This document shows positions 1 through 33,510 of a DNA stretch of 64,000 bases, in pieces; the first letter of the stretch is position 1, and each line of letters begins with the position of its first letter. Origin of the DNA: Crossiella equi (lineage in GTDB: Bacteria; Actinomycetota; Actinomycetes; Mycobacteriales; Pseudonocardiaceae); contig NZ_JAGIOO010000001.1 in NCBI RefSeq assembly GCF_017876755.1, positions 8,665,786 to 8,729,785 on the forward strand, given 5' to 3'. The position numbers were made by a program, and so were the translations under genes. Under the pieces are notes generated by a model, which worked only from the letters and a program-made list of their open reading frames with translations, was not told the origin of the DNA and did not search any database.

Positions 1-2
1 TG

Positions 3-3000
3 CGCGGTGAGCTGTGCGTGGCCGGGGTCAACCTGGCCCGCGGCTACCACGGGCGCGGCGACCTGACCGCCGAGCGGTTCGTGCCCAACCCCTACCCGCT
101 GGTCCCCGGCGAGCGCCTATACCGCACCGGCGACCTGGCCCGCTGGCGCGCCGACGGTGTGCTGGAGTACCTGGGCCGGGTGGACCGCCAGGTGAAACTG
201 CGCGGCATCCGCATCGAGCCCAGCGAGGTCGAGGTCGCGCTGTGCGAGCACCCGGCGGTCACCGCCGCGGCCGTGGACGTCTACGGCGAACGCCTCGTCG
301 CGCATGTCACCGCCACCGAGCCGGTCGACTTCCGCGCGCACCTGGCCCACCGCCTGCCCGAGGGCATGATCCCGTCGGTGTTCCGCGTCCTGGCCGCCAT
401 GCCGGTCACCGCCAGCGGCAAGATCGACCGGACCGCGCTGCCCGGCCTGGACGGCCTCGAGGCCGCCGAGCAGGTTGCCCCGCGCACACCCGCAGAGGTC
501 ACCGTGGCCGGGCTGTTCACCGAGCTGCTCGGCGTGCCCGCCGGGGCCACCGACGACTTCTTCGTCCTCGGCGGCCACTCGCTGCTGGCCACCCGCCTGG
601 TGTTCCGGCTGCGCACCGCGTTCGGCGTGCAGGTCCCGGTGGCCGAGGTGTTCACCCGCCGCACGGTCGAGGCCCTGGCCGAGTACGTGTCCACAGTGGA
701 CGCCGTCGACGGTGACCCGGTCGTCCCGGTGGACCGGGGCCGCCTGCTCGCCTCCTCCGCCCAGCGCCGCATGTGGTTCCTGGACCAGCTCGAACCCGGC
801 AGCGCCGAGTACCTGGTGCCGCTGGTGCTGCGGCTGCGCGGCCCGCTGGACGTGGACGCGCTCACCGCCGCCCTGGACGGGGTGGTGGCCCGGCACGAGA
901 TCCTGCGCACCCGCTACGAGGCCCCCGAGGGCGACCCGGTCCCGGTCATCGACCCCGCGGCGGGCCTGGCCATCCGGCCCGTCGACCTGACCGGCCGCCC
1001 GGACGAGGCCCAGGCCCTGGTGCACGCCGAGACCGCCCGGCCGTTCGACCTGGCCCGCGAGCACCCGTTCCGCGCCCTGCTGGTCCGCCTCGACCGCGAC
1101 GAGCACCTGCTCGTGCTGACCGCGCACCACATCGCGGTGGACGCCTGGTCGGTCGACGTGCTCACCCGCGAGCTGGGCCAGCTCTACACCGGCCAGCAGC
1201 TCGCCACCCCGGCCGTGCAGTACGCCGACTACGCCGCCTGGCAGGACCGCGCCGAACCCGGGCCGCACCTGGCCTACTGGCGCCAGCGCCTGGCCGGGCT
1301 GCCGCAGCTCGAACTGCCCACCGACCGCCCGCGCCCGGCCGTCCGCGACGCCGAGGGCGACCTGCTCTCCCTGGAGGTCCCGGCCGCGACCACGGCCGCG
1401 GTGGACGCCCTGGCCCGCACCCACGGTGCCACGCCGTTCATGGTGCTGCTGGCCGCCTTCCAGGTCCTGCTCGCCCGCTACACCGGCCAGGAGGACGTCG
1501 CGGTCGGCACCCCGGTCGCCGGGCGCACCCGCGCGGAGACCGAGGACATGCTCGGCGCCTTCCTCAACACCGTCGTACTGCGCGCCAGCACCGAGGTGCC
1601 CAGCTTCCGCGCGCTGCTGGAGCAGGTGCGCGGGCACGTGGTGGACGCCTTCGCCCACCAGGACCTGCCGTTCGAGCGCCTGGTCGACGAGCTCCAGCCC
1701 GGCCGCGACCTGGCCCGCAACCCGCTGTTCCAGGTGATGTTCGAGCTCCAGCAGGCCCAGCGCAGCCCGCTCACCCTGCCCGGTCTCACCGTCGAGCGGG
1801 TGCCCGCGCCGTGGCGCACGGCCAAGTTCGACCTCACGCTGTCCCTGGGCCGCCGCGCCGACGGCAGCCTCACCGGGCTCATCGAGTACGCCACCGCGCT
1901 GTTCGACCAGAGCACGGTGCGCCGCTTCGCCGGGCACTACCTCCGGCTGCTGCACAGCGCGGTGACCACCCCGGAGGCCCCGCTGGACCACCTGGTCCTG
2001 CTCACCGAGGCCGAGCACGGACAGCTGGTCACCGAGTGGAACCCGCCCGGCCCGCCGGAGACGCCCGCGTGCGTGCCGCAGCTGTTCGAGCAGCGCGTGC
2101 GCCTGCACCCGGACGCCGAGGCCGTCACCTTCGGCGAGGTCTCCTACAGCTACGCCGAGCTGAACCGCCGCGCCAACCGGCTCGCCCACCACCTGCGCAC
2201 CCGGGGCGTCGGCCCGGAGACCGTGGTCGCGGTGTGCCTGCAACGCGGCCTGGACGTGGTGGTGGCCCTGCTCGCGGTGCTCAAGGCGGGCGGCGCGTAC
2301 GTGCCGATCGACCCCGACCACCCGGCCGAGCGCCTGGCCTTCATGCTGGCGGACGCCACCTCGCACCTGGTGCTCGGCACCGGCGACGTCACGCGGCTGG
2401 CCGCGAGCGGCAAACCCGTGCTGCGCCTGGACACCCTGGACCTGTCCGGCTACCCGGACACCGACCCGGCACCGCTCGCGGGCCCGGCGCACCTGGCGTA
2501 CATGATCTTCACCTCGGGCTCGACCGGCCGCCCCAAGGGCGTGCTGGTCGAACACGGCTCCTACGCCCACCACTGCGGTGTGATCGCCCAGGAGTACGAC
2601 ATCCTGCCCGGCGACCGCGTGGTGCTGCTGTCCGCGCTGACCTTCGACGTGGCCATGGACCAGATCGCGGCCACGCTGCTCGTCGGCGCGACCGTGGTGG
2701 TGGCCGACCCGCTGTTCTGGAGCCCGGCCGAGCTGCCCGAGCGCGTGCACGAACACGGCATCACGATCATGGAGATCACCCCCGCCTACTACCGCGAGGT
2801 GGTGCGCGCGCTGCTGCCCGGCGACCAGCGCCTGGCCGGGCTGCGGCTGATGAACGTGGGCAGCGACGTGGTCACCGTGGACGATGCCCGCAAGTGGGCG
2901 GCCACCGGCCTGCCGGGGCGGTTCCTGTGCAACTACGGGCCGACCGAGGCGACCGTGACCTGCCTGCTGCACCCCATCCGCGACCTGCCCGAGGCCCGTG

Positions 3001-3896
3001 GCGAGGCGGCGCTGCCCATCGGGCGGCCGGTGCCGGGGACCAGGGCCTACATCGTCGACAAGCACGGCAACCCGGTGCCGGTCGGCGTCCCCGGTGAGCT
3101 GCTGCTGGGCGGCGTGCGGCTGGCCCGCGGCTACCACGCGCGGCCGGAGCTGACCGCGGAGAAGTTCGTGCCGGACCCGTTCAGCGGCGAACCGGGCGCG
3201 CGCCTGTACCGCACCGGCGACCTGGTCCGGTACCTGCCGGACGGTGCGGTGGAGTTCCTGGGCCGCATCGACCAGCAGGTCAAGCTGCGCGGGTTCCGCA
3301 TCGAGCTCGGCGAGATCGAGGCCGTGCTCGCCCAGCACCCCGGGGTGCGCGCGGCGGTCGTGGTGGCCCGGGACGTGCAGCCCGGTGACCGCAGGCTGGT
3401 GGCCTACCTCGTCCCGCAGTCCGGCCAGCCGGACGTCGCCGAGCTGCGCGCGTTCGCGGGGGAGCGGCTGCCCGAGTACATGGTGCCCTCGCTGTGGGCG
3501 TTCCTGGACGCACTCCCGTTGACGCCGAGCAAGAAGGTCGACCGCAAGGCGCTGCCCGCGCCGGAGATCGACCGCCCCGACCTCGCCGTGCCCTACCTCG
3601 CGCCCCGCAACCCGACCGAGGAGCTCATCGCCGGGATCTGGGGCGAGGTGCTGGGCATCGACCAGGTCGGCGTCGAGGACGACGTCTTCGCCCTCGGCGC
3701 GCACTCCCTGCTCGCCACCCGGGTGCTGGCCCGGCTGAACGCGGTCTTCGGCATCGAGCTGCCACTGCGCAGGCTGTTCGAGGCCACGACCGTCGCGACC
3801 CTCGCGGACGTGGTGACCGAGGCCGTGGAGGCCGCGATCGCCGAGCTGTCCGACGACGAGGTCGCCGCCCTGCTGGCCGCCCCCGACCACCCGTGA
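3..3896 (+). CDS. Nonribosomal peptide synthetase, 5' end cut by window edge (A-T-C-A-T)
   Basis: The reading frame is already open at base 3, inside an adenylation domain (the A8 motif GEL..AGVNLARGY), so the N-terminus lies outside the window. Order: end of A1, T1 (GGHSLLA near 572-590), C (HHIAVDA at 1126-1146), A2 (FTSGSTGRPKG near 2510), T2 (GAHSLLA near 3700), stop at 3896. There is no thioesterase, so the chain must pass to another protein, probably the NRPS at 25337. The C motif ends in Ala instead of the usual Gly (HHxxxDG). Aligning A2 on GrsA gives the pocket code D-V-D-E-N-G-N-V-T-K. Asp at position 239 and Glu at 278 suggest a basic side chain such as Dab or Orn; this is inference. 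Genes for a Dab-type aminotransferase and a carbamoyltransferase follow in the same direction. Confidence 0.95.
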   Translation, partial: RGELCVAGVNLARGYHGRGDLTAERFVPNPYPLVPGERLYRTGDLARWRADGVLEYLGRVDRQVKLRGIRIEPSEVEVALCEHPAVTAAAVDVYGERLVAHVTATEPVDFRAHLAHRLPEGMIPSVFRVLAAMPVTASGKIDRTALPGLDGLEAAEQVAPRTPAEVTVAGLFTELLGVPAGATDDFFVLGGHSLLATRLVFRLRTAFGVQVPVAEVFTRRTVEALAEYVSTVDAVDGDPVVPVDRGRLLASSAQRRMWFLDQLEPGSAEYLVPLVLRLRGPLDVDALTAALDGVVARHEILRTRYEAPEGDPVPVIDPAAGLAIRPVDLTGRPDEAQALVHAETARPFDLAREHPFRALLVRLDRDEHLLVLTAHHIAVDAWSVDVLTRELGQLYTGQQLATPAVQYADYAAWQDRAEPGPHLAYWRQRLAGLPQLELPTDRPRPAVRDAEGDLLSLEVPAATTAAVDALARTHGATPFMVLLAAFQVLLARYTGQEDVAVGTPVAGRTRAETEDMLGAFLNTVVLRASTEVPSFRALLEQVRGHVVDAFAHQDLPFERLVDELQPGRDLARNPLFQVMFELQQAQRSPLTLPGLTVERVPAPWRTAKFDLTLSLGRRADGSLTGLIEYATALFDQSTVRRFAGHYLRLLHSAVTTPEAPLDHLVLLTEAEHGQLVTEWNPPGPPETPACVPQLFEQRVRLHPDAEAVTFGEVSYSYAELNRRANRLAHHLRTRGVGPETVVAVCLQRGLDVVVALLAVLKAGGAYVPIDPDHPAERLAFMLADATSHLVLGTGDVTRLAASGKPVLRLDTLDLSGYPDTDPAPLAGPAHLAYMIFTSGSTGRPKGVLVEHGSYAHHCGVIAQEYDILPGDRVVLLSALTFDVAMDQIAATLLVGATVVVADPLFWSPAELPERVHEHGITIMEITPAYYREVVRALLPGDQRLAGLRLMNVGSDVVTVDDARKWAATGLPGRFLCNYGPTEATVTCLLHPIRDLPEARGEAALPIGRPVPGTRAYIVDKHGNPVPVGVPGELLLGGVRLARGYHARPELTAEKFVPDPFSGEPGARLYRTGDLVRYLPDGAVEFLGRIDQQVKLRGFRIELGEIEAVLAQHPGVRAAVVVARDVQPGDRRLVAYLVPQSGQPDVAELRAFAGERLPEYMVPSLWAFLDALPLTPSKKVDRKALPAPEIDRPDLAVPYLAPRNPTEELIAGIWGEVLGIDQVGVEDDVFALGAHSLLATRVLARLNAVFGIELPLRRLFEATTVATLADVVTEAVEAAIAELSDDEVAALLAAPDHP

Positions 3897-3916: not shown

Positions 3917-5209
3917 ATGACCGTCACCGCGCACCGTCCCGGCGGCCACACCAGCGCCACCGACTTCTCCGTCTTCCAGGACCTGGAGTCGGAGGTGCGG
4001 AGCTACTGCCGCAAGTTCCCCGTCGTCTTCCACCGCGCCAAGGGCGCCGAGCTCTACGCCGAGGACGGCCGCGTCTACACCGACTTCTTCTGCGGCGCGG
4101 GCACGCTGAACTACGGGCACAACAACGACTTCATCAAGCGCCGCCTCGCCGACTACCTGCTGTCCGACGGTGTGGTGCACGCGCTGGACATGTACACCAC
4201 GGCCAAGCGCGAGTTCCTGCGCACCTTCGGCGAGGTGGTGCTGCGGCCGCGCGGGCTGGACTACAAGGTGCAGTTCTGCGGACCGACCGGCACCGACTCG
4301 GTCGAGGCCGCGCTCAAGGTCGCCCGCCGCGCCACCGGGCGCACCGGGCTGGTCGCGTTCACCGGCGCCTACCACGGCATGTCCCGGGGCTCGCTGGCCG
4401 TCACCGGCTCGCGCCGCGCCCGCCGCGCCGGTGGCCTGACCCCCGCGGACGTGACGTTCGTGCCGTTCGAGGACGGGCCGCAGGGTCCGTTCGACTCGAT
4501 CGCCTACCTGGAGCGGCTGCTCGCCGACCCGTCCTCCGGCTTCGAGATCCCGGCCGCGGTGATCGTGGAGCCGATGCAGATGGAGGGCGGGCTGTACCCG
4601 GCCTCGGCTGCCTGGCTGCGCTCGCTGCGCGCGCTGACCGAGCGCCACGGCATCCTGCTCATCTTCGACGAGATCCAGGCGGGCTGCGGGCGGACCGGCC
4701 GGTTCTTCTGCTTCGAGCACGCCGGGGTCACCCCGGACATCGTCACCGTGTCCAAGTCCATCGGCGGCTACGGCCTGCCGCTCTCGCTGGCGCTGTTCAA
4801 GCGGGAGCTGGACGTCTGGGAGCCCGGCGAGCACACCGGCACCTTCCGCGGCAACCAGCTCGCCTTCGTCGCGGCCACCGCCGCCCTGGAGCTGTGGCAG
4901 CAGACCAAGTTCCACACCGACCTCGCGGTGGCCAGCCGCCGCCTGGACCGCTTCCGCACCGAGGTCGAGCTGCTGGACCCGGAGGTGAGCACCCGCGGCC
5001 TGGGCATGGCCGTCGGCATCGACCTGGGGCGCGCGGGCGGGTTCGAGCGCGCCGACCGCATCCAGCGGTACGCCTTCGAGCACGGCCTGATCGTGGAGCT
5101 GTGCGGGCGGCACGACGAGGTGATCAAGATCCTGCCGCCGCTGACCATCGACATGGTCCGCCTGGAGCGGGGCCTGGACGTGCTCCGCGACGCCATCCGC
5201 ACGGCCTGA
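3917..5209 (+). CDS. Class III PLP aminotransferase, diaminobutyrate--2-oxoglutarate type (EctB-like)
   Basis: 430 aa, ATG preceded by GAGAGGA, 20 bases after the NRPS stop. The protein follows the EctB/PvdH pattern: FDEIQAGCGRTG, the PLP lysine in TVSKSIGGYG (K280), and PGEHTGTFRGNQLAF. This family transfers an amino group to aspartate 4-semialdehyde, giving L-2,4-diaminobutyrate. No ectA or ectC neighbour is present, so the enzyme probably feeds the peptide and not ectoine synthesis. The free ACT protein at 33573, of the aspartokinase regulatory type, fits a locally tuned aspartate-family supply. A different omega-amino acid substrate cannot be excluded. Confidence 0.88.
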   Translation: MTVTAHRPGGHTSATDFSVFQDLESEVRSYCRKFPVVFHRAKGAELYAEDGRVYTDFFCGAGTLNYGHNNDFIKRRLADYLLSDGVVHALDMYTTAKREFLRTFGEVVLRPRGLDYKVQFCGPTGTDSVEAALKVARRATGRTGLVAFTGAYHGMSRGSLAVTGSRRARRAGGLTPADVTFVPFEDGPQGPFDSIAYLERLLADPSSGFEIPAAVIVEPMQMEGGLYPASAAWLRSLRALTERHGILLIFDEIQAGCGRTGRFFCFEHAGVTPDIVTVSKSIGGYGLPLSLALFKRELDVWEPGEHTGTFRGNQLAFVAATAALELWQQTKFHTDLAVASRRLDRFRTEVELLDPEVSTRGLGMAVGIDLGRAGGFERADRIQRYAFEHGLIVELCGRHDEVIKILPPLTIDMVRLERGLDVLRDAIRTA

Positions 5210-5219
5210 GGAGGCTCCG

Positions 5220-6140
5220 ATGCCACACCTGATCTCCATCGACGACCTGACCGACGAGGACCTGCACTGGCTCGTGCGGCGCGGCGCCGCCTACGCCGCC
5301 GGGGAGCTGGAGGGCGAGAAGCCGTTGCGGGACCTCGTGGTCGGGGTGCTGTTCCGCAAGACCTCCACCCGCACCCGCACGGCCTTCTCCGCCGGTGCCC
5401 TGCGGCTGGGCGCACAGCTCATCACCTACGGGCCCGGTGACCTCCAGGAGAACACCGGGGAGTCCACAGAGGACACCGGCGCGGTGCTCTCGCGCATGCT
5501 GGACGTGCTGGTGGCCCGCACCGCCGCGCCCGAGCGCGAGCTGCGCGCGTACGGGGCGCAGGACCGGATGGCCGTGGTCAACGCGATGACCACCGAGGAG
5601 CACCCCACCCAGGCGCTCACCGACCTCACCACCCTGCTCGGCCACTTCGGCTCCCTGGACGGGCTGCGCGTGCTGTACGTGGGCGAGGGCAACAACACCG
5701 CGACCGCGCTGACCCTGGCGCTGCCGCGCTGCCCGGGCACCGAGCTGCACCTGCGCACCCCCGCCGGGTACGGCGTGCCGGAGTCGTTCGTGGAACGCGG
5801 TGGGATCAGCGCCAAGCGCACCGGCTCGGTGCTCACCCAGGCGCACGACCTCGACGACCTGCCCGAGGTCGACGTCGTCTACACCACGCGCTGGCAGACC
5901 ACCGGTACCAGCAAGCCGGACCCGGACTGGCGGGCGGTGTTCGACCCGTTCCAGGTCAACGCCGCCCTGATGGCCCGCTGCCCGGGCGCGGTATTCCTGC
6001 ACGACCTGCCCGCCCACCGCGGCGAGGAGGTCACCGCCGAGGTGCTCGACGGCCCGGCCAGCCTGGCGTTCACGCAGGCGGAGAACAAGTACCACAGCGC
6101 CCGCGCCGTCCTGGAGCTCTGCTCCGGCCGCCGCGCCTGA
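5220..6140 (+). CDS. Ornithine/aspartate carbamoyltransferase-like enzyme with altered substrate site
   Basis: 306 aa, ATG after GAGGAGG. The carbamoyl-phosphate site is intact: KTSTRTRT (residues 47-54) and HPTQ (128-131). The amino-acid side is changed. The ornithine-enzyme HCLP motif reads HDLP (261-264), so the conserved Cys is Asp, and the SMG loop is replaced by TTRWQTTG (R224, Q226), which looks more like the RxQ loop of aspartate carbamoyltransferases. The enzyme probably carbamoylates an amino acid other than ornithine. Because it directly follows the Dab-type aminotransferase, carbamoyl-Dab (a ureido amino acid) is a reasonable guess. A housekeeping arginine-pathway role is unlikely given the context and the residue changes. 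Confidence 0.82.
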   Translation: MPHLISIDDLTDEDLHWLVRRGAAYAAGELEGEKPLRDLVVGVLFRKTSTRTRTAFSAGALRLGAQLITYGPGDLQENTGESTEDTGAVLSRMLDVLVARTAAPERELRAYGAQDRMAVVNAMTTEEHPTQALTDLTTLLGHFGSLDGLRVLYVGEGNNTATALTLALPRCPGTELHLRTPAGYGVPESFVERGGISAKRTGSVLTQAHDLDDLPEVDVVYTTRWQTTGTSKPDPDWRAVFDPFQVNAALMARCPGAVFLHDLPAHRGEEVTAEVLDGPASLAFTQAENKYHSARAVLELCSGRRA

Positions 6141-6161
6141 GCCGGAGAGAGGTGTCCTCCC

Positions 6162-8447
6162 ATGTCCGTGATCCTGCCCACCGGTGACTGGCGGTTGTGG
6201 TCCCAGTTCTCCCTGCGCGGTCCGGGTTTCCCCGCCGACGGCGTGCTCGCGCTGGCGCCGGAGGGGCTGGCCGTGGCCGCGGACAAGTTCGGTCCGGAGG
6301 ACCAGCTCGGCGGCACCGACTGGACCGTCTTCCGCGAGGCCTTCGACGCGGCCTCGGTGGTGACCGCCCGGCACCTGCAGGGCATCGCCGCCCGCCCGGA
6401 CTTCCGCGCGGCGGTGGCCTGGCAGAACCGGACCGTGCTGCGCACCGGCATCGCGCCGTTCCTGAACTGGACGCCGACCGCCGAGGGCCGCAGCAGCATG
6501 CCGAGGCAGCGCGAGGAGCTGGTCGCGCACTACTGGCAGCGGTTCTGCGTCAAGAACGACACCATCGGCTTCTTCGGCCCGGTCGGCTGGGGCAGCTGGG
6601 ACCTGGACAGCCGCGGCCTCGCGGTGCGGCCCGGTTCGGGGCTGATCGAGCACTCGGCCGTGTACTTCTCCAGCTGGGCCATCGACACCCTGGCCAAGGT
6701 GATCGGCGAGGACCCGGCCCTGCGCCGGTGGACCGCGCCGCGCCGGGTGTCCTTCGTCCGGGTCGCCGACGACCTGGTGCACCTGCCCGGCCGCCCCCCG
6801 CAGCCGATCACCGCCGAGCAGCAGGCCGTGCTGGCCCGCTGCGACGGCACCCTCGCCCCGGTGGACCTCGCGGCCGAGGCCGGTCTGTCCGAAGTGGACC
6901 TGTTCGCGGTGCTGGACGACCTGGTCCGCCGCCGGTGGCTGGTGTGGCGGCTGGAGGTGCCGACCACCGCGCACCCCGAGGCGCACCTGCGGTCGACCCT
7001 GGAACGCGTGCGCGAGCCCGAGGTCCGCGAGCGCGCGCTGGCGAAGCTGGCGGTGCTGGAGCGGGCGAAGCAGCGCATCCACGAGGCTTACGGTGACGCG
7101 GACGCCCTGTCCGAGGCGATGGCCGCCCTGGAAACCGACTTCGCCGAGCTGACCGCGACCTCGGCGGTGCGGGCGAAGAACAGCCGCACGGCGCCCTGCC
7201 GTTCGCTGGTCTACTCCGACACCCGTCGCTCGGCGACCGCGACCCTGGGCTCGGCGGTGCTCGCCGAGCTGACCCCGCTGGGCCTGTGCCTGACCGCCGC
7301 GCGGTGGATGACGGGCAAGTTCGCCGCCGCCATGACCGGGCACATCCGCGCCGCCTACGAACGGGTGCTGGCCCGCCAGGGCCGGGTGGACCTGGGCGCG
7401 CTGTGGTTCGAGTGCCTGCCCGTGCCGCACCCGGCCTCCGAACGCGAGATCGACGCCATCCAGGCCGAGCTGCGCGAGAAGTGGTCACGGGTGCTGGACG
7501 TGCCCGAGGGTGCGCGCCGGGTGCGGCTGGACAGCGCGGACATCGCGGCGAAGGTGCGCGCGGAGTTCGAGCCGGTGGGGGAGAGCTGGAACATCGCCCG
7601 CTACGTCAGCCCGGACGTGCTGGTGCTGGCCGAGGACGCCGAGGCGGTGGAGCGCGGTGAGTTCGAGCTGGTGCTGGGCGAGCTGCACGTGGCCATGAAC
7701 ACCGTGGGCGCCTCGCTGTTCGCCTTGCAGCACCCGGACATGTCCACGCTGCTGGCCGAGACCACCACCGACTTCCCGGGCCCGCGCCTGATGCCGATGC
7801 TGCCCAAGGAGCAGCCGCCGCGCTGGTCCACGCGCAGCCGTCCGGCCCTGGTGCGCCCGGAGGACTATTTCGTGGGCATGGTCGACTACACCGCCGACCC
7901 GCACAACCCGCGTGCCCTGAACAGCGCGGACGTCACGGTGTCCGATGTGGACGGACGTCTGGTGGCGACCCTGCCGGACGGCGCGGAGTTCCCGCTGCTG
8001 GACGTCTTCGGCAACGCCCTGACCAACCGCGTGATGGACCGCTTCACCCTCCGTCCGCGGGGTGAGCACACGCCGCGGATCACGATCGACCGCATGGTGG
8101 TGGCCCGGGAGACCTGGCGGATCGGGGCGGCGGGCCTGGGCTTCACCGCGGAGAAGGACGAGGCGCGCCGGTTCGTGCGGGCCCGCCAGTGGCGGACCGC
8201 CCTGGACCTGCCGCGCTTCGTGTTCGTCACCTCGCCGACCGAGCCGCGCCCGTTCTACGTGGACTTCGACAGCCCGGTCTACGTGAACATCCTGACCAAG
8301 GCCGCCCGCCGCCTGGCCCGCACGCACCCCGAGGGCCGCCTGACGCTCAGCGAGATGCTGCCCGCCCCGGACCAGGCCTGGCTGACCGACGACCAGGGCC
8401 AGCGCTACACCTCGGAACTGCGCTTCGTGGCGGTGGACCAGGCATGA
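6162..8447 (+). CDS. LanB-like protein (lantibiotic dehydratase N-terminal family), copy 1
   Basis: 761 aa. The core NDTIGFFGPVGWG (about residue 132) and C-terminal FVTSPTEPRPFYVDF are typical of the lantibiotic dehydratase N-terminal (glutamylation) family. Members use aminoacyl-tRNA: LanB enzymes glutamylate Ser/Thr of a peptide, and the smaller PEARL enzymes add amino acids to a peptide end. At this length the separate elimination domain of full LanB proteins (about 1000 aa) is missing, and no elimination protein or precursor peptide was found nearby. The gene overlaps the free adenylation-domain gene by ATGA. A paralogue lies at 11085. The substrate is unknown; a carrier-protein-bound or free peptide is an attractive inference. 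Confidence 0.85.
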   Translation: MSVILPTGDWRLWSQFSLRGPGFPADGVLALAPEGLAVAADKFGPEDQLGGTDWTVFREAFDAASVVTARHLQGIAARPDFRAAVAWQNRTVLRTGIAPFLNWTPTAEGRSSMPRQREELVAHYWQRFCVKNDTIGFFGPVGWGSWDLDSRGLAVRPGSGLIEHSAVYFSSWAIDTLAKVIGEDPALRRWTAPRRVSFVRVADDLVHLPGRPPQPITAEQQAVLARCDGTLAPVDLAAEAGLSEVDLFAVLDDLVRRRWLVWRLEVPTTAHPEAHLRSTLERVREPEVRERALAKLAVLERAKQRIHEAYGDADALSEAMAALETDFAELTATSAVRAKNSRTAPCRSLVYSDTRRSATATLGSAVLAELTPLGLCLTAARWMTGKFAAAMTGHIRAAYERVLARQGRVDLGALWFECLPVPHPASEREIDAIQAELREKWSRVLDVPEGARRVRLDSADIAAKVRAEFEPVGESWNIARYVSPDVLVLAEDAEAVERGEFELVLGELHVAMNTVGASLFALQHPDMSTLLAETTTDFPGPRLMPMLPKEQPPRWSTRSRPALVRPEDYFVGMVDYTADPHNPRALNSADVTVSDVDGRLVATLPDGAEFPLLDVFGNALTNRVMDRFTLRPRGEHTPRITIDRMVVARETWRIGAAGLGFTAEKDEARRFVRARQWRTALDLPRFVFVTSPTEPRPFYVDFDSPVYVNILTKAARRLARTHPEGRLTLSEMLPAPDQAWLTDDQGQRYTSELRFVAVDQA

Positions 8448-9940
8448 TCACCACGATCCTGGCCCACCCCGCCAGCGCCCCGGCGATCCGCACCCCGGCC
8501 GCGGTGGTGACCTACGGCGAGCTGGCCACGCGCATCACGGTCCTGGCCCACCGCCTCGCCGCCCGGGGCCTGGGCCCGGAACGGGTCTGCGCCCTGGCTG
8601 TCCCGCGCGGTGTGGACGCGGTGGTGGCGATGGCGGCGGTCCTGCACACGGGCGCGGCCTTCCTCTCCCTGGACGTGGAGGCCCCACCGGCCCGCCTGTC
8701 CGCGATGGCCACGAGCGCGGAAGCGGAGTTCCTGCTCACCACAACCGGGGTGACCCTGGACCTGGCGTTGCCGCGCCTGGACCTGGACACCCCGGACCCG
8801 GCCTGGGCCCCGCTGCCCCCGGTCCGTCCGAACGCCCTGGCCTACGTGAGCCACACCTCGGGCTCGACGGGCACCCCGAACGCGGTCCAGATCGAACGCC
8901 GGAGCCTGGAGTCCTACCTGGACTTCCTGGTCGCCGACTACGGCCTGGGCCCGCACACGACCTGCCTCCAGCTGGCACCGCAGGGCTACGACGCCTCGAT
9001 CCGCGACACCCTGGCCCCCCTGGTGGCAGGCGGCCAGCTGGTCCTGGTCCCGCGCTCGGCCCTGCTGCGCCCGAAGGAGTTCGCCGAGGTCCTGACCACC
9101 CACGGCGTCAACACGATCCTGAGCACCACCCCGTCCTTCCTGACGGCGATGTCCGAAGTGGACCTGAGCCGGTTGTCCCTGGTGGTCTCCAGCGGCGAGT
9201 CCCTGCGCCCCTTCCTGGCCGCGGGTGGCCGCGGCCGGGTGGGCGGCACCCTGGTCAACCAGTACGGCCCGACCGAGTGCACGATGACCACAACCCGCTA
9301 CCGGGTACCGCACAACCCGGACCTGTCGGCGGACCGCATCGGCACCCCGATCGACGGCGCGGAGATCCACCTCCTGGACCCGCGGGGCGATGAAGTCCCG
9401 GACGGCACCCCAGGCGAGATCCACATCGGCGGCGTGGGCGTGGCAAGGGGCTACGCGAACAACCCGGAACTGACCGCAACGCGCTTCCACCCGACCACGA
9501 ACACCCGCCTCTACCGAACCGGCGACCAGGCCCGCCGCCTCCCCGACGGCACCCTGGAGTACCTCGGCCGCCTGGACCGCCAGGTCAAGATCCGGGGCTA
9601 CCGGGTCGACCCGGGCGAGGTCGAAGCGGCCCTGCTCCGCCACCCGGCGATCACGGGCGCGGTGGTCACGGCCCCGGTGGACGACCGGGGCCGGGTCCAC
9701 CTGGTCGCCCACATCACGGGCGGCGAGAACACCCCCGACCCGGCGCTGCGGGCCCACCTGGCGGAGTCCCTGCCGCCGCACCTCATGCCGCGCCGGTTCT
9801 CCCGGCTGGCGGAGCTGCCGCGCACGCCGACGGGCAAGGCCGACCGGAAGCTGTTGACCGGCGAGGCCGCCACCGCACCCCTCACGGCCGCCGTGCTGGG
9901 CAGTACCCCGCCCGCCGCCTCCCCGGAGCCCGTCCGATGA
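8444..9940 (+). CDS. Stand-alone NRPS adenylation domain
   Basis: 498 aa, ATG overlapping the LanB-like stop (ATGA). A single adenylation domain: YGPTECT, ARGY, YRTGDQARR and the A10 lysine in PTGKADRK are present, with no C or T domain attached. The A3 loop reads TSGSTGTPNAV, so the usual Lys-Gly after Pro is Asn-Ala (N146). Pocket positions aligned on GrsA read D-A-R-S-V-S-Q-M-T-K, which I do not recognise; Arg at 239 could pair with an acidic or carbonyl-bearing side chain. It probably loads the free carrier protein at 10848. The weakened A3 loop may slow catalysis. Confidence 0.88.
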   Translation: MITTILAHPASAPAIRTPAAVVTYGELATRITVLAHRLAARGLGPERVCALAVPRGVDAVVAMAAVLHTGAAFLSLDVEAPPARLSAMATSAEAEFLLTTTGVTLDLALPRLDLDTPDPAWAPLPPVRPNALAYVSHTSGSTGTPNAVQIERRSLESYLDFLVADYGLGPHTTCLQLAPQGYDASIRDTLAPLVAGGQLVLVPRSALLRPKEFAEVLTTHGVNTILSTTPSFLTAMSEVDLSRLSLVVSSGESLRPFLAAGGRGRVGGTLVNQYGPTECTMTTTRYRVPHNPDLSADRIGTPIDGAEIHLLDPRGDEVPDGTPGEIHIGGVGVARGYANNPELTATRFHPTTNTRLYRTGDQARRLPDGTLEYLGRLDRQVKIRGYRVDPGEVEAALLRHPAITGAVVTAPVDDRGRVHLVAHITGGENTPDPALRAHLAESLPPHLMPRRFSRLAELPRTPTGKADRKLLTGEAATAPLTAAVLGSTPPAASPEPVR

Positions 9941-10851
9941 CCATCCCCGCCCCGGCCCTCTCCCTGGGCCGCGAAGACGTCCTGCGGGCCGCCGAGCGGC
10001 TGACCGGCGAGGTTCGCTGGACCCCGCTCGTCCGGCTCACCCCCGGCCTCCTGGCCAAGCCCGAGCACCTCCAGCACAGCGGTTCCTTCAAGTTCCGCGG
10101 GGCCGTCAACGCCTTCCACGCCCTCCGGCCCTCGGCCGTGGTGTGCGGCTCGTCCGGCAACCACGGCATCGCCGTCGCCACCCTCGGGGCCCGCACCGGG
10201 GTGCCCGTCACCGTCGTCATGGCCGAGGACGCCAGCCCGCGCAAGGCCGATCTGATCCACGGCCTGGGGGCGGCGGTCGTGCGGGTGCCCGGTGGGGTGG
10301 CCGAGCGGGACCGGCAGGCCCGGAAGATCGCCCAGCGGTGCGGGGCGCTGCTGCTGCCCTCCTCCGACCACGAGCTGGTCGTGGCCGGGGCCGGGACCGT
10401 GGCCCTGGAGGTGCTGGCCGAGCAGCCCCGGGTGGAGACCCTGTTCGTTCCCGTCGGCGGGGGCGGGCTGCTCGCCGGGAGCTGTCTCGCCGCCCACGGC
10501 CAGGGGGTCCGGGTCGTGGGGGTCGAGCCCGCCGAGGCGCCCCGGTACGCCCGCTCGCTCGCGCTCGGGCGGCCCGTGCTCGTGCCGCCCTGCCTGACCA
10601 TCGCCGACGGGCTGCGCGGGCAGCGGCCCGGCGAGGTCATCCTGCCGATCGTGCGGCAGTGCGTCGACGACCTCGTCACGGTGACCGACGAGGAGGTCCT
10701 CGACGCCCTGGAACTCCTGCGCCACCACGGTATCCCCGCCGAACCCAGCGGGGCCGTCGCCCTGGCCGGTGCCCTGCGCACCGGATGGACCGGGCTCGCC
10801 ACCGCCGTCGTCAGCGGCGGCAACACCACTACCCGAAAGGCTGTCCGATGA
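9937..10851 (+). CDS. PLP fold-type II enzyme, serine/threonine dehydratase-like
   Basis: 304 aa, ATGA overlap with the adenylation gene. Fold-type II signatures are present: SGSFKFRGA with the PLP lysine (K52), SSGNHG, and the phosphate-binding loop GGGGLLAG. The nearest known families are threonine dehydratase and serine racemase; the C-terminal regulatory ACT domains of biosynthetic threonine deaminase are absent at this length. In this cluster it might make an unusual amino acid such as a D-, dehydro- or diamino acid for the adjacent A-PCP pair. The exact reaction cannot be read from sequence. Confidence 0.85.
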   Translation: MTIPAPALSLGREDVLRAAERLTGEVRWTPLVRLTPGLLAKPEHLQHSGSFKFRGAVNAFHALRPSAVVCGSSGNHGIAVATLGARTGVPVTVVMAEDASPRKADLIHGLGAAVVRVPGGVAERDRQARKIAQRCGALLLPSSDHELVVAGAGTVALEVLAEQPRVETLFVPVGGGGLLAGSCLAAHGQGVRVVGVEPAEAPRYARSLALGRPVLVPPCLTIADGLRGQRPGEVILPIVRQCVDDLVTVTDEEVLDALELLRHHGIPAEPSGAVALAGALRTGWTGLATAVVSGGNTTTRKAVR

Positions 10852-11081
10852 ACGACGTGACCGAGCTGATCGCCGGGATCTACCGCGAGACCCTCAACGA
10901 CGACGCCCTGCACACCGAGAGCGACTTCTTCGAGGCCGGGGGCGACTCGCTGGCCGCGTTCCAGATCACCGCCCGCATCCAGGAGGCCCTCGGGGTGGAG
11001 GTGCCCGTGGCCCTGGTGTTCGCCTACCCCAGCCCGGTGGACCTGGCGTCGGTGGTCGAGCTCGACACGGCCGGGGTGTGA
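10848..11081 (+). CDS. Free peptidyl carrier protein
   Basis: 77 aa, ATGA overlap with the preceding gene. It is a single PP-binding domain with FFEAGGDSLAAF; S34 is the phosphopantetheine attachment site. It sits between the free adenylation domain and the second LanB-like gene, so it is the likely carrier of the amino acid activated by the 8444 protein, and possibly the platform on which a LanB-like protein acts. No phosphopantetheinyl transferase is in the window. Confidence 0.93.
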   Translation: MNDVTELIAGIYRETLNDDALHTESDFFEAGGDSLAAFQITARIQEALGVEVPVALVFAYPSPVDLASVVELDTAGV

Positions 11082-11084
11082 GCC

Positions 11085-13316
11085 GTGGTGCACCTTGACG
11101 GTACCTGGCGCCTGTGGGAGCAGTTCGGCCTGCGCGGCCCGGGGTTCCCCGCCGGAGGGGTGCTCCGGCTCGCCCCCGACGGCCTCGCCGAGGCCGCGGA
11201 CAAGTTCGAGGAGTGCTCCGGCCCGGAGTGGGCGGAGTTCACCCGGCACTACGAGGAGGCGGCCGTCTCGGTCGCGCACGAGCTACAGGACATCGCCGCG
11301 CGCCCGGACTTCCGGGCCGCGGTGGCCTGGCAGAACCGGCCCGTGCTGGCCTCCGGCATCACCCCGTTCCTGAACTGGGCACCGACCGCCGCCGGGCGCA
11401 CCAGCATGCCCCGGCAGCGCGAGGAGCTGGTCGCGCACTACTGGCAGCGCTTCTGCGTCAAGAACGACACCATCGGCTTCTTCGGTCCCGTCGGCTGGGG
11501 CCGCTGGGACCTGCACGGCCCCGACCTGGCCGTGCGGCCAGGGGACCGCCTCATCGACGAGTCCACCGTCTACTTCGCCAGCTGGGCCCTGGACACCCTC
11601 GCCCGTACGCTCGCCCCCGGCCTGCGGCAGTGGATCGCCCCCCGCCGCGTGCCCTTCGTCCACTGTGGACCTGACGCGGTCACCGTGCCCGCCCGGCCGC
11701 CGCAGCCGGTCACGGCACAACAGCAGCGCCTCCTGGCCCTGTGCGACGGCACCCGCTCCGCCCGCGCGCTCACCGAGGTCGACCCGGAGGCCGAGACCGT
11801 CCTCGCCGAGCTGGAGAAGCGCCGCTGGATCACCTGGCGCCTGGACATCCCGGCGGGCGCCCACCCCGAGCGCTGGCTGCGCGACTGGCTGGGCACCGTC
11901 GACGACCCCGCCACCCGGGAGCACGCCGTCGCCGCCCTGGACCTGCTGGAACGCGGCCGTGACCGCGTGGCCGCCGCGCGGGACGCGGACGAGCTGGTCG
12001 CCGCCCTGACCGCGCTGGAACAGGACTTCACCGCCCTCACCGACACCGCGGCCGTCCGGGAGAAGTCCGCCTCGACGGCCCCGTGCCGCGCGGTGGTCTA
12101 CTCCGACTGCCGCCGCACCGCCCAGGCCACCACCGGCCCGGCGGTCCTGGCCGCCCTGGCACCACTGCCGCTGCTGCTGACCAGCGCCACCTGGCTGACC
12201 CAGGAGCTGGCCGCGCGGGTCCTGGCCAAGGCCGACGCGGTCTTCGACGAGCTCGGACCGGTCAACCTGGCCGAGTTCTGGTTCGCCTGCATGCCGATCC
12301 TGCACGGCCAGGCCGCCACCGACGCCGCCGAGCTGCAAACCGAGTTCCAGCGCCGCTGGCACGACATCCTCCAGCCCGACGGCGCCACCCGCGTGCACCG
12401 CACCACCGCCGCCCTGGCCGAACGCGTGGCCGAGGCCTTCGGCACCCCCACCCCGGGCTGGACGGCGGCGCGCTACCTCAGCCCGGACGTCCTCATCGCC
12501 GCCCCGGACGAGCAGGCGGTGGCCCGGGGTGACTTCAGCCTGGTCCTGGGTGAGCTGCACGTGGCCAGCAACACCCTGGGCGCCTCCCTGTTCGTGCACC
12601 AGCACCCGGACCAGTCGCAGCTCCTGGCGGCCACCAGCACCGACCACCCGGGCCCGCGCCTGCTCCCGGTACTGGCCAAGGAACACCGCTCCCGCCTGTC
12701 CGCACGCATCCGCCAGACCCTGGTGCGCCCGCAGGACCTCTACGTGGCGCTGGCCGACAACACCACCGACCCGCACCGCGACCGCACCGTGCCGAGCGCG
12801 GACATCCGGGTCCAGCGCCGGGACCACGGCCTGGTGGCGGTCCTGCCGGACGGCGCGGAGTTCCCGGTGGCCGACGTCTTCTCCCACGTGCTCACCACCC
12901 TGGCCATGGACCTGTTCCGCCCCTTCCCGGACGCCGCCCACACCCCGCGCGTGACCATCGACAAACTGGTCGTGGCCCGGGAGTCCTGGCGCTTCCGCGC
13001 GGCCGGCATCACGGCCGCCGAGGACAAGCAGGAAGCACGCCGTTTCGTACGGCTGCGCCAGTGGCGGGCCGCGCACGAGCTCCCGCGCTTCGCCTTCATC
13101 ACCTCGCCGACCGAACCCCGCCCGTTCTTCGTGGACTTCGACAGCCCGGTGTACCTCAACATCCTGGCCAAGGCGATCCGCAGGCTGGCCCGCAAGGACG
13201 AGCAGGGCGAGATCCAGGTGACCGAGATGCTGCCGACCCCCGAACACGCCTGGCTGACTGACCACGAAGGAGGCCGCTACACCTCGGAGCTGCGCTTCGT
13301 GGCGGTGCACGACTGA
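11085..13316 (+). CDS. LanB-like protein (lantibiotic dehydratase N-terminal family), copy 2
   Basis: 743 aa from GTG at 11085 (a second GTG follows at 11088), three bases after the carrier-protein stop. It is clearly paralogous to the 6162 protein along its length: both begin with WRLW.QF.LRGPGFPA, both have NDTIGFFGPVGWG (here about residue 127) and both end with YTSELRFVAV. It too lacks the elimination domain. Two diverged copies kept in one operon imply two substrates or two sequential tRNA-dependent steps; this is inference. The 3' end overlaps the opposite-strand LamG gene by 40 bases. It is the last gene of this NRPS block. Confidence 0.85.
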   Translation: MVHLDGTWRLWEQFGLRGPGFPAGGVLRLAPDGLAEAADKFEECSGPEWAEFTRHYEEAAVSVAHELQDIAARPDFRAAVAWQNRPVLASGITPFLNWAPTAAGRTSMPRQREELVAHYWQRFCVKNDTIGFFGPVGWGRWDLHGPDLAVRPGDRLIDESTVYFASWALDTLARTLAPGLRQWIAPRRVPFVHCGPDAVTVPARPPQPVTAQQQRLLALCDGTRSARALTEVDPEAETVLAELEKRRWITWRLDIPAGAHPERWLRDWLGTVDDPATREHAVAALDLLERGRDRVAAARDADELVAALTALEQDFTALTDTAAVREKSASTAPCRAVVYSDCRRTAQATTGPAVLAALAPLPLLLTSATWLTQELAARVLAKADAVFDELGPVNLAEFWFACMPILHGQAATDAAELQTEFQRRWHDILQPDGATRVHRTTAALAERVAEAFGTPTPGWTAARYLSPDVLIAAPDEQAVARGDFSLVLGELHVASNTLGASLFVHQHPDQSQLLAATSTDHPGPRLLPVLAKEHRSRLSARIRQTLVRPQDLYVALADNTTDPHRDRTVPSADIRVQRRDHGLVAVLPDGAEFPVADVFSHVLTTLAMDLFRPFPDAAHTPRVTIDKLVVARESWRFRAAGITAAEDKQEARRFVRLRQWRAAHELPRFAFITSPTEPRPFFVDFDSPVYLNILAKAIRRLARKDEQGEIQVTEMLPTPEHAWLTDHEGGRYTSELRFVAVHD

Positions 13317-14146
13317 CCCCGGGCGCACGAGGGCATGGCCGCGGTGTGCGCGGCCACCCGTGCGGCCGACAGCTCGTGCCCGTACACCGCGACCTTCCCC
13401 ACCGCCCCGGCGAACCAGGACCCGAAGTCCCGGGTCCCCACGCGCAGCGGTGCGGTGCCGTCCACCGGGGTGATCACCACGTCCCGGATCACCAGGTGGT
13501 CCTGGTCGCGCAGCACACCGTCCCGGTAGACCTTGGTGTAACCGTGCGGGTACTCGGGTGTGCGGACCCGGGCGTTGATCACCAGCACGTAGTGGATCCA
13601 CCGCCCGGCGGTGAGCGCGTCCTGGAAGTAGGAGCCCGCGCCCAGGCCGCCCGAGGGGTTGAAGGCGTAGCCGGAGACGCGGTTCGGGCGGTCCTCGGTG
13701 TTGGTCTTGGCGTACATCCGGGCCACGTACTCGTGCTGGCCCGGCGCGCCCTTGCCCAGCCAGTGCACGTAGCCCGAGCCCTCGGTGTTCGGGAACTCCA
13801 GCACGTCCGGCCGCAGCCAGGCCTCCAGGGTGAGCTCGCCGGTGGTGGCCGGGCTCAGGGACGGGTGGTCGGCGACCTCCAGGTAGCCGGTGGCGCCGTC
13901 GAAGTCCGCGGCCCGCTCGCCGTTGGGCAGTACCGCCGGTGCCCGGCCGCCCGCGTAGACGCCGGTGTGGCCGTGGCCGCTGAGGTCGGGCTCCCGCGAA
14001 CCGCCGTCCATCCGCCAGTAGGCGACGGGGGAGTCGGCGAGCACGGTCGCGTCGTAACCGCAGGCCCGGGGGTGGGCGGCGGCGGTGGGGGAGAGGCAGG
14101 CGGCCAGCAAGGCCACCGCGGGGAGAAGGGGGGAACGTCGCATCAT
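13277..14146 (-). CDS. Secreted LamG-type (concanavalin-like) lectin domain protein
   Basis: 289 aa; a second ATG lies at 14143. The N-terminus is a signal peptide (MRRS, a hydrophobic run ending LSPTAAAHP). The mature part is a LamG/concanavalin-like jellyroll: DSPVAYWRMD, DFDGATGYLEV, LTLEAWLRPD, KVYRDG and FAGAVGKVAVYGHELS. No catalytic motif is visible, so it may bind glycans or be a catalytic type I do not recognise. It begins 17 bases after the aldolase gene and is probably the last gene of that operon. Its last codons overlap the convergent LanB-like gene. Confidence 0.72.
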   Translation of the reverse strand: MMRRSPLLPAVALLAACLSPTAAAHPRACGYDATVLADSPVAYWRMDGGSREPDLSGHGHTGVYAGGRAPAVLPNGERAADFDGATGYLEVADHPSLSPATTGELTLEAWLRPDVLEFPNTEGSGYVHWLGKGAPGQHEYVARMYAKTNTEDRPNRVSGYAFNPSGGLGAGSYFQDALTAGRWIHYVLVINARVRTPEYPHGYTKVYRDGVLRDQDHLVIRDVVITPVDGTAPLRVGTRDFGSWFAGAVGKVAVYGHELSAARVAAHTAAMPSCARGQSCTATKRSSEV

Positions 14147-14163
14147 GTCACCTGTCCCGGTCG

Positions 14164-16238: not shown

Positions 16239-16253
16239 GGCAGAACTCCGTTT

Positions 16254-16263
16254 CAAACGTTTG
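16254..16263. promoter_or_regulatory. LacI-family operator CAAACGTTTG (copy 1)
   Basis: A perfect 10-bp palindrome with the central CG typical of LacI-family operators, between the epimerase start (16238, - strand) and the end of the lacI-type gene. The same sequence recurs at 21519 and 23792, always at a promoter of this cassette, so all three are probably bound by the regulator encoded at 16306. Confidence 0.8.
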
Positions 16264-16305
16264 CACGGAAGACTGGGCGAACCCTTGGGTGGAGTGGTGG
16301 AGAGC

Positions 16306-21479: not shown

Positions 21480-21518
21480 GGACCGTCCTCCGGGGTGGCT
21501 GGATGCTGGTCGGTCGTG

Positions 21519-21528
21519 CAAACGTTTG
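21519..21528. promoter_or_regulatory. LacI-family operator CAAACGTTTG (copy 2)
   Basis: A perfect palindrome in the 63-base gap between the divergent binding-protein gene (start 21479) and the GH3 gene (start 21543). One bound repressor could silence both transcripts. Confidence 0.8.
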
Positions 21529-21542
21529 ATAAGAAAGTAGGT

Positions 21543-23933: not shown

Positions 23934-25175
23934 TCAGGCCGCGGGCTCCGGCACCCGGCCGGCGGGACGGGCCTCCGCCAGGCTCGGCGCCGCGCGGATC
24001 GCCGGGCTGACCGTGGCCAGCACCGCCAGGACCAGCATCCAGGCCGACAGCACCCACACCGTGGGCCGCGCGCCGATCCACTCCAGGGCGAAGCCGCCCA
24101 GCAGGGAGCCCAGGGGGACCGCGCCGAAGGCGATCATGCCCGCCGCGCCCAGGACCCGGCCCTGGAGGTGGTCCGGGGTGATGGCGAGCTGGTAGGCGCT
24201 GGTGGCCACGTTCCAGACCGGGCCCACGAAGCACATCAGGGCGTACACCGCGCCCAGCACGTACGGGTTGGGCACCAACAGCATCAGCGGGACCAGCAGG
24301 CCCCAGGCCCAGTTCGCGCCGATCACCACCACGCGCATGGACAGCCGCCGCTCCAGCCACGGCGCCGCCAGCGAGCCCAGCACCCCGCCGACCGCCGCCA
24401 GGCCGAACATCACGCCCACCAGGCCCGGGGAGGCGCCGTAGTCGGCGGCGATCACGATGACGACCAGGAACAGCGCGCGGAAGAGGAAGTTGCTGCCCGC
24501 GACCAGGGCCGTGGTCATGCGCAGGAACGGCTGGCGCCACAGCCAGACGACACCCTCGGTCAGCCGCAGGCGCGTGCGCGGGCGCGCGGTCTGGAAGTCC
24601 GTGCGGATCAGCAGCAGCGAGACCAGCGACACCAGGTAGGTCAGCGCGTCGAACAGGAACGGCACCGCCCGGCCCAGGCCGAACAGCGCGCCGCCGAGGG
24701 GCTGGCCCAGCATGGCCGCGCCGCGTTCGCGGGCCTCGTTGCGGGACAGCGCCAGTGTCAGGTGGCTCGGGTGCACCACGTTCGGCACCGCGGCCGCTGC
24801 GGCGATCTTGAACGTCACGGTCAGCACGCCCTCGACGAAGCCGACCGCCAGGATGTGCGGCAGGGTCAGCGCGTCCACGGCCAGCGCGGTGGCCAGGGTG
24901 GCGATCGCCAGGGCCCGCAGCACGTCGCACCAGATCATCACGCGCTTGCGGTTGAGCCGGTCCACCAGCGCGCCCGCGGGCACCTGGCACAGCAGCTGCG
25001 GCAGCAGCGCGATGAACCCGCTCAGGCCCGCGTCCACCGCCGAACCGGTCAGCGCGAGCACCAGCAGCGGGTAGGCGACGCTGCTCGCGTTCGCGCCGAG
25101 GCTGGACACCGCCGAGCCCGACCACAGCAGCAGGAACTCCCGGTTGCGCCGCAGCGGCGGTACCTGTTCGGTCAT
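23934..25175 (-). CDS. MFS transporter, probable peptide exporter
   Basis: 413 aa from ATG 25175. Twelve hydrophobic segments are suggested; GALVDRLNRKRVMIWCD is the MFS loop between helices 2 and 3, and LGANASSVAYPLLVLALTGS the first helices. This is the pattern of actinobacterial drug-efflux MFS proteins (Tmr/EntS type). It is divergent from the second NRPS gene across a 161-base gap in which I recognise no operator. Its place at the start of the NRPS block suggests export of the peptide and self-protection. Confidence 0.9.
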   Translation of the reverse strand: MTEQVPPLRRNREFLLLWSGSAVSSLGANASSVAYPLLVLALTGSAVDAGLSGFIALLPQLLCQVPAGALVDRLNRKRVMIWCDVLRALAIATLATALAVDALTLPHILAVGFVEGVLTVTFKIAAAAAVPNVVHPSHLTLALSRNEARERGAAMLGQPLGGALFGLGRAVPFLFDALTYLVSLVSLLLIRTDFQTARPRTRLRLTEGVVWLWRQPFLRMTTALVAGSNFLFRALFLVVIVIAADYGASPGLVGVMFGLAAVGGVLGSLAAPWLERRLSMRVVVIGANWAWGLLVPLMLLVPNPYVLGAVYALMCFVGPVWNVATSAYQLAITPDHLQGRVLGAAGMIAFGAVPLGSLLGGFALEWIGARPTVWVLSAWMLVLAVLATVSPAIRAAPSLAEARPAGRVPEPAA

Positions 25176-25336: not shown

Positions 25337-32523
<7,187 letters not shown>

Positions 32524-32524
<1 letters not shown>

Positions 32525-33510
32525 TGTCAGTGGTGCTGGAGGTCGGCACGCCCCCGGGCGTCCTCACTCTGAACCGGGCGAACGCGCTGGCGGTCGAGGA
32601 GGTCGCGGCCACCCTGCTGGACGTCGCCGACGGCCAGGTCGACTCCCCGCTGTGGGCGGCCACCGCCCGCGAACGCGCGCTGGAGCTGCCGATCGCGCTG
32701 CGCCGGGCCCTGTCGGCCTACCGGCGGGACTCCGGCGTCACCGGGGCCTTCCTGATCCGGGGCCTGCCGGTGGACGAGTCGCTGGTGCCCGCCACGCCGC
32801 AGCGCAGCGGTTCGGTGCAGCGCGAGGCGACCATCCCGGCCGCGGTGCTGATGATGGTCACCCACCTGCTCGGCGACGTGATCGCCTTCCGCCCGGAGAA
32901 GTCCGGCGCGCTGGTGCACGACGTGGTGCCGGTGCCGGGCAGCGAGGAGTTCCAGGGCAACGAGGGCTCGGTGCTGCTGTCCTTCCACACCGAGAACGCC
33001 TTCCACGCCAACCGTCCGGACTTCGTGCTGCTCCAGTGCCTGCGCGCCGACCACGACCGCGAGGCCGGGCTGCGCACCGCGGGCATCCGCCAGGTGCTCG
33101 ACCTGCTGTCGGAGACCTCCCGCGAAGTGCTGTTCCGCCGCGAGTTCGTCACCGCGCCGCCGCCCTCCTTCGGGCTGCCCGCCGGGGAGACCGAGCCGCA
33201 CGCGGTGCTCAGCGGGGCGCCCGAGGACCCGAGCCTGCTGATCGACTTCGCCGCGACCACCCCGCTGACCGACGCCGCCCGGGCCGCCGCGCGGGAGCTC
33301 CAGCACCTGTTCGCCGAGCACGCGCTCACGCACTACCTGGTGCCGGGCGACCTGGCGATCGTGGACAACCACGTGACGGTGCACGGCCGCACCGGGTTCA
33401 CCCCGCGCTACGACGGCGCGGACCGGTGGTTGCAGCGCACGTTCGCGGCCAAGGACCTGCGCCGCTCGCGGCAGCACCGCATCGGCGACGGCCACGTCCT
33501 GTTCGGCTGA
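32524..33510 (+). CDS. Fe(II)/2-oxoglutarate oxygenase, AsnO/VioC-type amino acid hydroxylase
   Basis: 328 aa, overlapping the NRPS stop. The iron facial triad is visible: HTE (H155, E157) and the distal His in TVHGRTGF (H287), followed by the 2-oxoglutarate Arg in DRWLQRTF. Length and the segment around NAFHANRPDF match the AsnO/VioC/OrfP group, which beta-hydroxylates free L-Asn or L-Arg. Because the last NRPS module reads as Asn, L-Asn to 3-hydroxy-Asn is the best guess; the hydroxylated residue could then be activated by A2. Hydroxylation of a basic amino acid instead is possible. Confidence 0.88.

Follow-up and report, generated by a model that had tools for sequence, protein, structure and literature searches.

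Stand-alone LanB-like proteins in nonribosomal peptide synthetase (NRPS) clusters have been known as a general class of amide ligase since 2024. The LanB-like protein SnaE of the threopeptin NRPS-polyketide synthase (PKS) cluster adds Thr to the free carboxylate of a ureido dipeptide in a reaction proposed to require ATP and Thr-tRNA; in the available account, peptide-bond formation was shown through gene omission, and about two thousand NRPS-linked LanB-like clusters were counted (PMC11212132). The peptide aminoacyl-tRNA ligases (PEARLs) TglB, BhaB7 and AmmB possess ATP-grasp-like and tRNA-CCA residues and, in the accounts available, extend a ribosomal scaffold peptide (PMC11962472, PMC12945691). 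Here we describe two LanB paralogs, LanB1 and LanB2, from a 64,000-nucleotide stretch of the 9.44-Mb Crossiella equi genome (G000:C1:8665786-8729785; hereafter the window), where they enclose a free-standing adenylation (A) domain, a pyridoxal phosphate (PLP) enzyme and a peptidyl carrier protein (PCP).

LanB1 and LanB2 in an NRPS operon

Genes were called in our own gene-caller run and domains were assigned by Pfam. LanB1 (6162..8447, 761 aa; PF04738 Lant_dehydr_N, E 1.8e-53) and LanB2 (11085..13316, 743 aa; PF04738, E 7.4e-38) share 58% identity; LanB2 has a GTG start and is 742 aa long if the next GTG is used. Between them lie the free A domain (8444..9940, 498 aa; PF00501 and PF13193), a fold-type-II PLP enzyme (PALP, 9937..10851; PF00291) and the stand-alone PCP (10848..11081, 77 aa, FFEAGGDSL; PF00550). 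The A domain was called from the ATG at 8444, and a longer open reading frame from 8189 was not taken. All genes from the upstream synthetase NRPS3 through LanB2 are on the plus strand and are joined throughout by 4-base overlaps (ATGA-type at 8444/8447; 9937/9940 and 10848/10851) or by gaps of 3 to 21 bases (20 at 3896/3917, 10 at 5209/5220, 21 at 6140/6162 and 3 at 11081/11085). Because only these short gaps and overlaps separate its genes, the operon has no space for a separate precursor gene. Neither a precursor peptide nor LanC was identified beside the LanBs among the Pfam-scanned neighbours, with small open reading frames outside the operon not searched singly.

PF04738 was the only Pfam match of LanB1 and LanB2, and the PF14028 elimination domain was absent from both. 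No NCBIfam model matched either protein, and phmmer comparison with PDB sequences (LanB queries P0001 and P0002) gave no match at E 1; a profile built from 24 relatives matched TbtB among the PDB sequences (4.8e-14). The predicted structure of LanB1 resembles the glutamylation domains of TbtB, GodF, MibB and NisB, as judged by a VIA-align second look at the LanB1 model only and not by a search of its own. Both paralogs retain the PEARL ATP-site motifs D485, E507-x-H509 and E752-x-R754, with equivalence assigned by motif and spacing in an alignment that held no PEARL sequence. Both also retain the tRNA-CCA residues Y124 and R127, which are likewise kept in the full LanBs of this genome. A comparison of E752-x-R754 with the full LanBs was dropped because alignments conflicted at that site. 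As a separate observation, the position of LanB1 R696 is Arg in all covered cassette LanBs, including the LanB2 equivalents (58 and 62 rows), and Lys in 24/24 other NRPS-linked LanBs; it may tentatively correspond to K763 of BhaB7.

LanB1 and LanB2 thus combine the features by which PEARLs are recognized, namely homology to LanB glutamylation domains without an elimination domain, the ATP residues and the tRNA-CCA Arg and Tyr. They differ from TglB, BhaB7 and AmmB in that no ribosomal scaffold peptide is encoded between the operon genes. Like SnaE, they are located in an NRPS cluster. These sequence features suggest that both are ATP- and aminoacyl-tRNA-dependent amide ligases and not dehydratases. 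The family name and the predicted glutamylation-domain fold would also fit a true dehydratase route, in which the LanBs glutamylate PCP-bound Ser or Thr and a dehydroamino acid arises when a further enzyme removes Glu by elimination. A class I lanthipeptide dehydratase has its elimination domain in cis or nearby; a whole-genome scan gave six PF14028 matches, including four full LanBs that each carry the domain, and the nearest of these LanBs is about 137 kb from LanB2. The glutamylation-only LanBs TbtB and GodF, of thiopeptides and goadsporin, are accompanied by a precursor peptide and a stand-alone elimination protein, whereas neither partner was found at this locus. Both paralogs, moreover, keep ATP-site motifs that glutamylation does not need, and we regard the dehydratase route as very improbable.

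These results agree with a preliminary description of the window, made from its sequence alone, in which two LanB paralogs of 761 and 743 aa without an elimination domain enclosed an A domain, a PLP enzyme and a PCP in one overlapping operon. Of the structural comparisons that it proposed, the one with NisB showed a similar fold for the LanB1 model, and the elimination enzyme just outside the window that it named, together with a precursor gene, as counter-evidence was not found within about 137 kb by the PF14028 scan.

Conservation of the cassette

To follow the cassette across genomes, relatives of LanB1 were collected from 150 related genomes, 28 of which contained one at E 1e-10, and from a scan of genome contigs, where the best 80 of 90 matches represented 64 loci. 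Gene order was counted in 64 LanB1 rows drawn from both sets. The order free A domain, PALP, PCP and LanB2 directly follows LanB1 in 43 of the 64 rows as called and in about 50 after correction for missed or reversed calls. In four rows only the PCP was uncalled (L083, L096, L103 and L105), and six-frame reading found it in all four; one row was read backwards (L044) and two contained an extra small call (L090 and L107). Seven rows were cut (L091, L101, L108, L119, L122, L134 and L138) and seven differed (L047, L084 with two rows, L086, L120, L123 and L135). The same order occurs in Streptomyces, Actinokineospora, Saccharothrix, Salinispora and other genera, and the LanB1 of Crossiella sp. S99.2 (L075) is 79% identical to that of the window. 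Since the five genes recur together across many genera, their association is real and not due to chance.

LanB1 and LanB2 proteins formed two clades in a tree (support 0.996 and 0.656), so their duplication looks old; the single LanBs of L122 and L123 grouped with the LanB2 clade. The cassette accompanies at least two NRPS types, one with EctB and a carbamoyltransferase and the other with the A-domain codes DADNIGAVT/DAEEVGTIS. A large Streptomyces group carries it with no large NRPS in the flanking sequence retrieved.

The free A domain (DARSVSQMTK in the window) has the code DARS[V/A/C]SQMTK in 60 of 64 rows, with V in 32, A in 25 and C in 3, repeat copies counted. Of the four exceptions, one is a cut row, one reads DARSLSHMTK and two are decayed rows belonging to a single locus. 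The code carries Arg at position 239; we know of no match to it among known codes, and no substrate is assigned. The PLP enzyme is of the serine/threonine dehydratase and hydroxyaspartate ammonia-lyase kind, scores under every NCBIfam cut-off listed and keeps Lys52 of GSFK. The PCP bears a GGDSL motif.

More distant LanBs, too, have a free A domain or a PCP nearby (L055, L065, L071 and, in the window's own genome, L072). The L072 locus (G000:C1:291001-311000, 8582-12801) holds a second, more distant LanB with 33% identity, whose neighbours include a free A domain and an AAA_33 kinase-like gene.

Proposed role of the free PCP

We propose, with a probability of roughly 45%, that the PEARL-like ligases of the cassette use the free PCP to assemble a small acyl unit for NRPS3. 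The gene for this 3101-aa synthetase starts 5.4 kb upstream of the window's left edge (C-terminal part at 1..3896, plus strand; Pfam) and encodes three modules with three condensation (C), three A and three thiolation (T) domains, a C domain standing first and the A codes being DLTKVGEVG, DAWQFATID and DVDENGNVT. Both LanBs, an MbtH protein and the A domain, PLP enzyme and PCP between the LanBs form one conserved cassette, in which the free A domain would load one particular amino acid onto the PCP and the PLP enzyme would supply or alter that residue. LanB1 and LanB2 would each append one tRNA-borne amino acid to the free carboxylate or carboxylates of the PCP-bound unit, using ATP to phosphorylate the carboxylate before coupling it to the amino group of aminoacyl-tRNA. 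The PCP would take the place of the scaffold peptide of ordinary PEARLs, and the leading C domain of NRPS3 would accept the finished acyl unit. The residue loaded by the free A domain would perhaps have a side-chain carboxylate. More tentatively, and across the family, a carrier protein may replace the ribosomal scaffold, with two tRNA-dependent ligases assembling an amide-linked unit on an A-primed PCP without a condensation domain and the unit then being used by different NRPSs or alone.

Conservation of the A domain and PCP between the ligases would also fit a scheme in which the ligases take aminoacyl-S-PCP as the amine donor, with the A domain and PCP making a substitute for aminoacyl-tRNA. 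Such a scheme would account for the dedicated A domain, but both paralogs share R127 and Y124 with the full LanBs of the genome, and we consider it improbable.

A stronger competitor, although still unlikely in our judgement, is SnaE-like late tailoring. Here the ligases would extend free carboxylates of a thioesterase (TE)-released NRPS product, or a residue carboxylate beyond the reach of the assembly line, while the A domain, PLP enzyme and PCP serve another step. The SnaE precedent supports this scheme, as does NRPS4 (25337..32524, plus strand; two C, two A, two T and one TE domain by Pfam), a second synthetase that is part of the cluster, as four same-genus genomes show. The codes of its A domains are DFWNVGMVH and DLTKIGEVG, which we take to be Thr-like and Asn-like, respectively. 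Fusions of LanB to TE in L058:9957-13037 and L059:10279-13503 place a LanB beside release, and no A domain or PCP lies between the LanBs in L047, L084, L086 and L120. Against late tailoring, the A-PLP-PCP trio stands between both LanBs in most rows, and the retrieved flanks of the cassette in the Streptomyces group contain no large NRPS. The ureido motif EHHxxHDG was also not seen in any of the four C domains in which the motif could be located (3/3 in NRPS3 and 1/2 in NRPS4). LanB is also fused to C-A-T modules or TE at L056:8338-13926 and L067:9793-15594, and fusions of LanB to TE and T domains are mentioned in the available text on SnaE (PMC11212132).

Several findings weigh against assembly on the PCP for NRPS3. 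The carboxylate used by SnaE arises from a ureido linkage, and the ureido motif was not seen in those four C domains. LanB1 retains a predicted RRE-like winged helix (residues about 187-264); in other proteins, this fold binds leader peptides. Cassette genomes also carry a LanM-peptide module. The suggestion of an acidic substrate leans on what we take to be aminoadipate codes. The contrast with full LanBs at position 485 depends on the alignment, because Asp occurs there in one of three full LanBs in one alignment, in which the full LanB L003 was missing or misread, and in 0/4 in another, which covers all four. LanB1, the PLP enzyme and LanB2 occur without the A domain and PCP at four loci (L047 and the Amycolatopsis loci L084, L086 and L120), and L123 has a single LanB and lacks the trio; thus, the PCP is not always adjacent to the LanBs. 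Finally, L052 and L135, from one genome, encode a LanB1-like protein with D485R, E507A and loss of H509, adjoined by a shortened A domain with a different code; by its sequence this is probably a decayed cassette.

SnaE resembles LanB1 and LanB2 in being a stand-alone LanB-like protein in an NRPS cluster without a precursor peptide. It differs in being single, in acting after a ureido chain reversal for which the motif was not found here, and in a gene list that, in the available text, contains none of the cassette's dedicated trio (free A domain, PLP enzyme, free PCP); this comparison is by description only (PMC11212132). In the livipeptin pathway of Streptomyces lividans, a tRNA-dependent enzyme is likewise coupled with an A-PCP unit, a C-minus NRPS, but according to the available account that enzyme is an L/F-transferase homolog and not a LanB (PMC10548850). 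The preliminary description had suggested that aminoacyl-tRNA chemistry may act on a PCP-bound or NRPS-derived peptide. The PEARL ATP and tRNA motifs of both paralogs and the SnaE precedent speak for such chemistry, with the PCP as its putative platform. The hybrid of ribosomal-type enzymes and NRPS assembly that it proposed fits the data but is not new in kind, because SnaE, an NRPS-linked LanB-like ligase, is experimentally known (PMC11212132, as available). The gene order that it proposed to look for in other genomes was recovered in many genera, as described above.

Precursor supply, a LanM module and implications

Two further genes lie between NRPS3 and LanB1 on the plus strand. The first encodes an EctB-type diaminobutyrate (Dab) transaminase for L-Dab supply (3917..5209; TIGR02407, 563.5 bits versus a cut-off of 552.2), and the second a protein of the ornithine/aspartate-carbamoyltransferase family (5220..6140; PF02729 and PF00185), which scores under the NCBIfam ornithine carbamoyltransferase cut-offs. 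Homologs of MbtH, SbnA and SbnB are encoded outside the window, divergent from NRPS3, and those of SbnA and SbnB exceed the NCBIfam cut-offs for 2,3-diaminopropionate (Dap) synthesis. As SbnA, SbnB and EctB all exceed their cut-offs, Dap and Dab supply is probably part of the cluster.

Downstream of LanB2, sugar ATP-binding cassette (ABC) transporter, LacI regulator, GH3 and oxidoreductase genes (13277-23791) split the NRPS cluster, separating LanB2 from the cluster's major facilitator superfamily (MFS) transporter (23934..25175, minus strand). These genes were rejected as cluster members because they are missing at that place in four same-genus genomes, where the MFS gene directly follows LanB2. 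NRPS4 is followed by a putative Fe(II)/2-oxoglutarate beta-hydroxylase of the VioC/GntD/clavaminate synthase kind (32524..33510, plus strand; PF02668, NCBIfam matches under cut-off). The rotihibin cluster of Streptomyces scabies shares a Dab transaminase, an Asn oxygenase, MbtH and NRPS modules for Thr and hydroxy-Asn, and differs in its fatty-acid starter and reductase domain; the word lantibiotic is absent from the paper's available text (PMC8552735).

Many cassette genomes encode LanM, a small peptide and an AAA/LuxR (LAL) regulator close to the cassette. LanM was found in 36/36 cassette genomes tested, besides the window genome's own; these comprised 32 chosen from the 64 loci, several already known to hold LanM, and four of the same genus. 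It lies within 30 kb of the cassette in 24 of the 36 (23 computed, plus L135), in most cases next to a small peptide gene. In a sample of 199 genomes from the genus of G181 (Streptomyces griseofuscus L097), LanM was present in 12/12 genomes with a close LanB1 (at least 50% identity) compared with 43/187 others (Fisher P 7.6e-8; 3.8e-6 without three genomes known beforehand). Genomes with only a distant LanB1 had LanM in 2/8 cases.

This enrichment, together with the RRE-like domain of LanB1, would suit ligases acting on the small peptide of the module, as in a LanM-type ribosomally synthesized and post-translationally modified peptide pathway. However, the module of the window genome (L141, G000:C1:6056001-6076000, 5663-11901: LanM, small peptide and large LAL regulator) is unlinked, at 2.6 Mb from the cassette, and in four same-genus relatives it is on other contigs or far off. 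Of 20 other LanM loci inspected in 19 genomes, chosen chiefly for the highest-scoring LanMs where no close LanB1 is present, 15 have the trio but not the cassette. Because the trio occurs without the cassette and includes a LuxR-type ATPase regulator, a signalling role fits as well, and we consider a link through the module peptide improbable. LanM was at first taken as a cluster member, a view weakened when the trio proved common without the cassette. A signalling module that controls the cluster seems more likely than a ligase substrate. The earlier statement that no precursor is visible holds for the operon, but relatives often have LanM and a small peptide gene near the cassette.

The same module was seen at L142-L166, L168-L170, L172, L175-L177, L179, L181 and 15 of L182-L201, the small peptide being uncalled in L162 and L196. 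The peptide C-termini are Thr-rich and often Cys-free, and the module looks like a lanthipeptide-type signalling system; our literature search found no description of LanM with such LAL regulators. Situated 25 kb upstream of the window is a pair of small LuxR regulators related to those adjacent to the module.

The pairing of LanBs, the dedicated set of A domain, PLP enzyme and PCP, and the conserved code of the free A domain seem to be new, and no description of the paired cassette was found in the open-access (PMC) literature searched. Against the roughly two thousand clusters counted, the literature found, as far as available, contains one NRPS-linked LanB-like enzyme with a known reaction (PMC11212132). 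Being widespread and equipped with its own A domain and carrier, the cassette offers a small testable system of five soluble proteins and tRNA. If the substrate is indeed PCP-bound, a single carrier would unite thioester with aminoacyl-tRNA chemistry, and the cassette would provide a route to amide bonds that lie out of reach of condensation domains.
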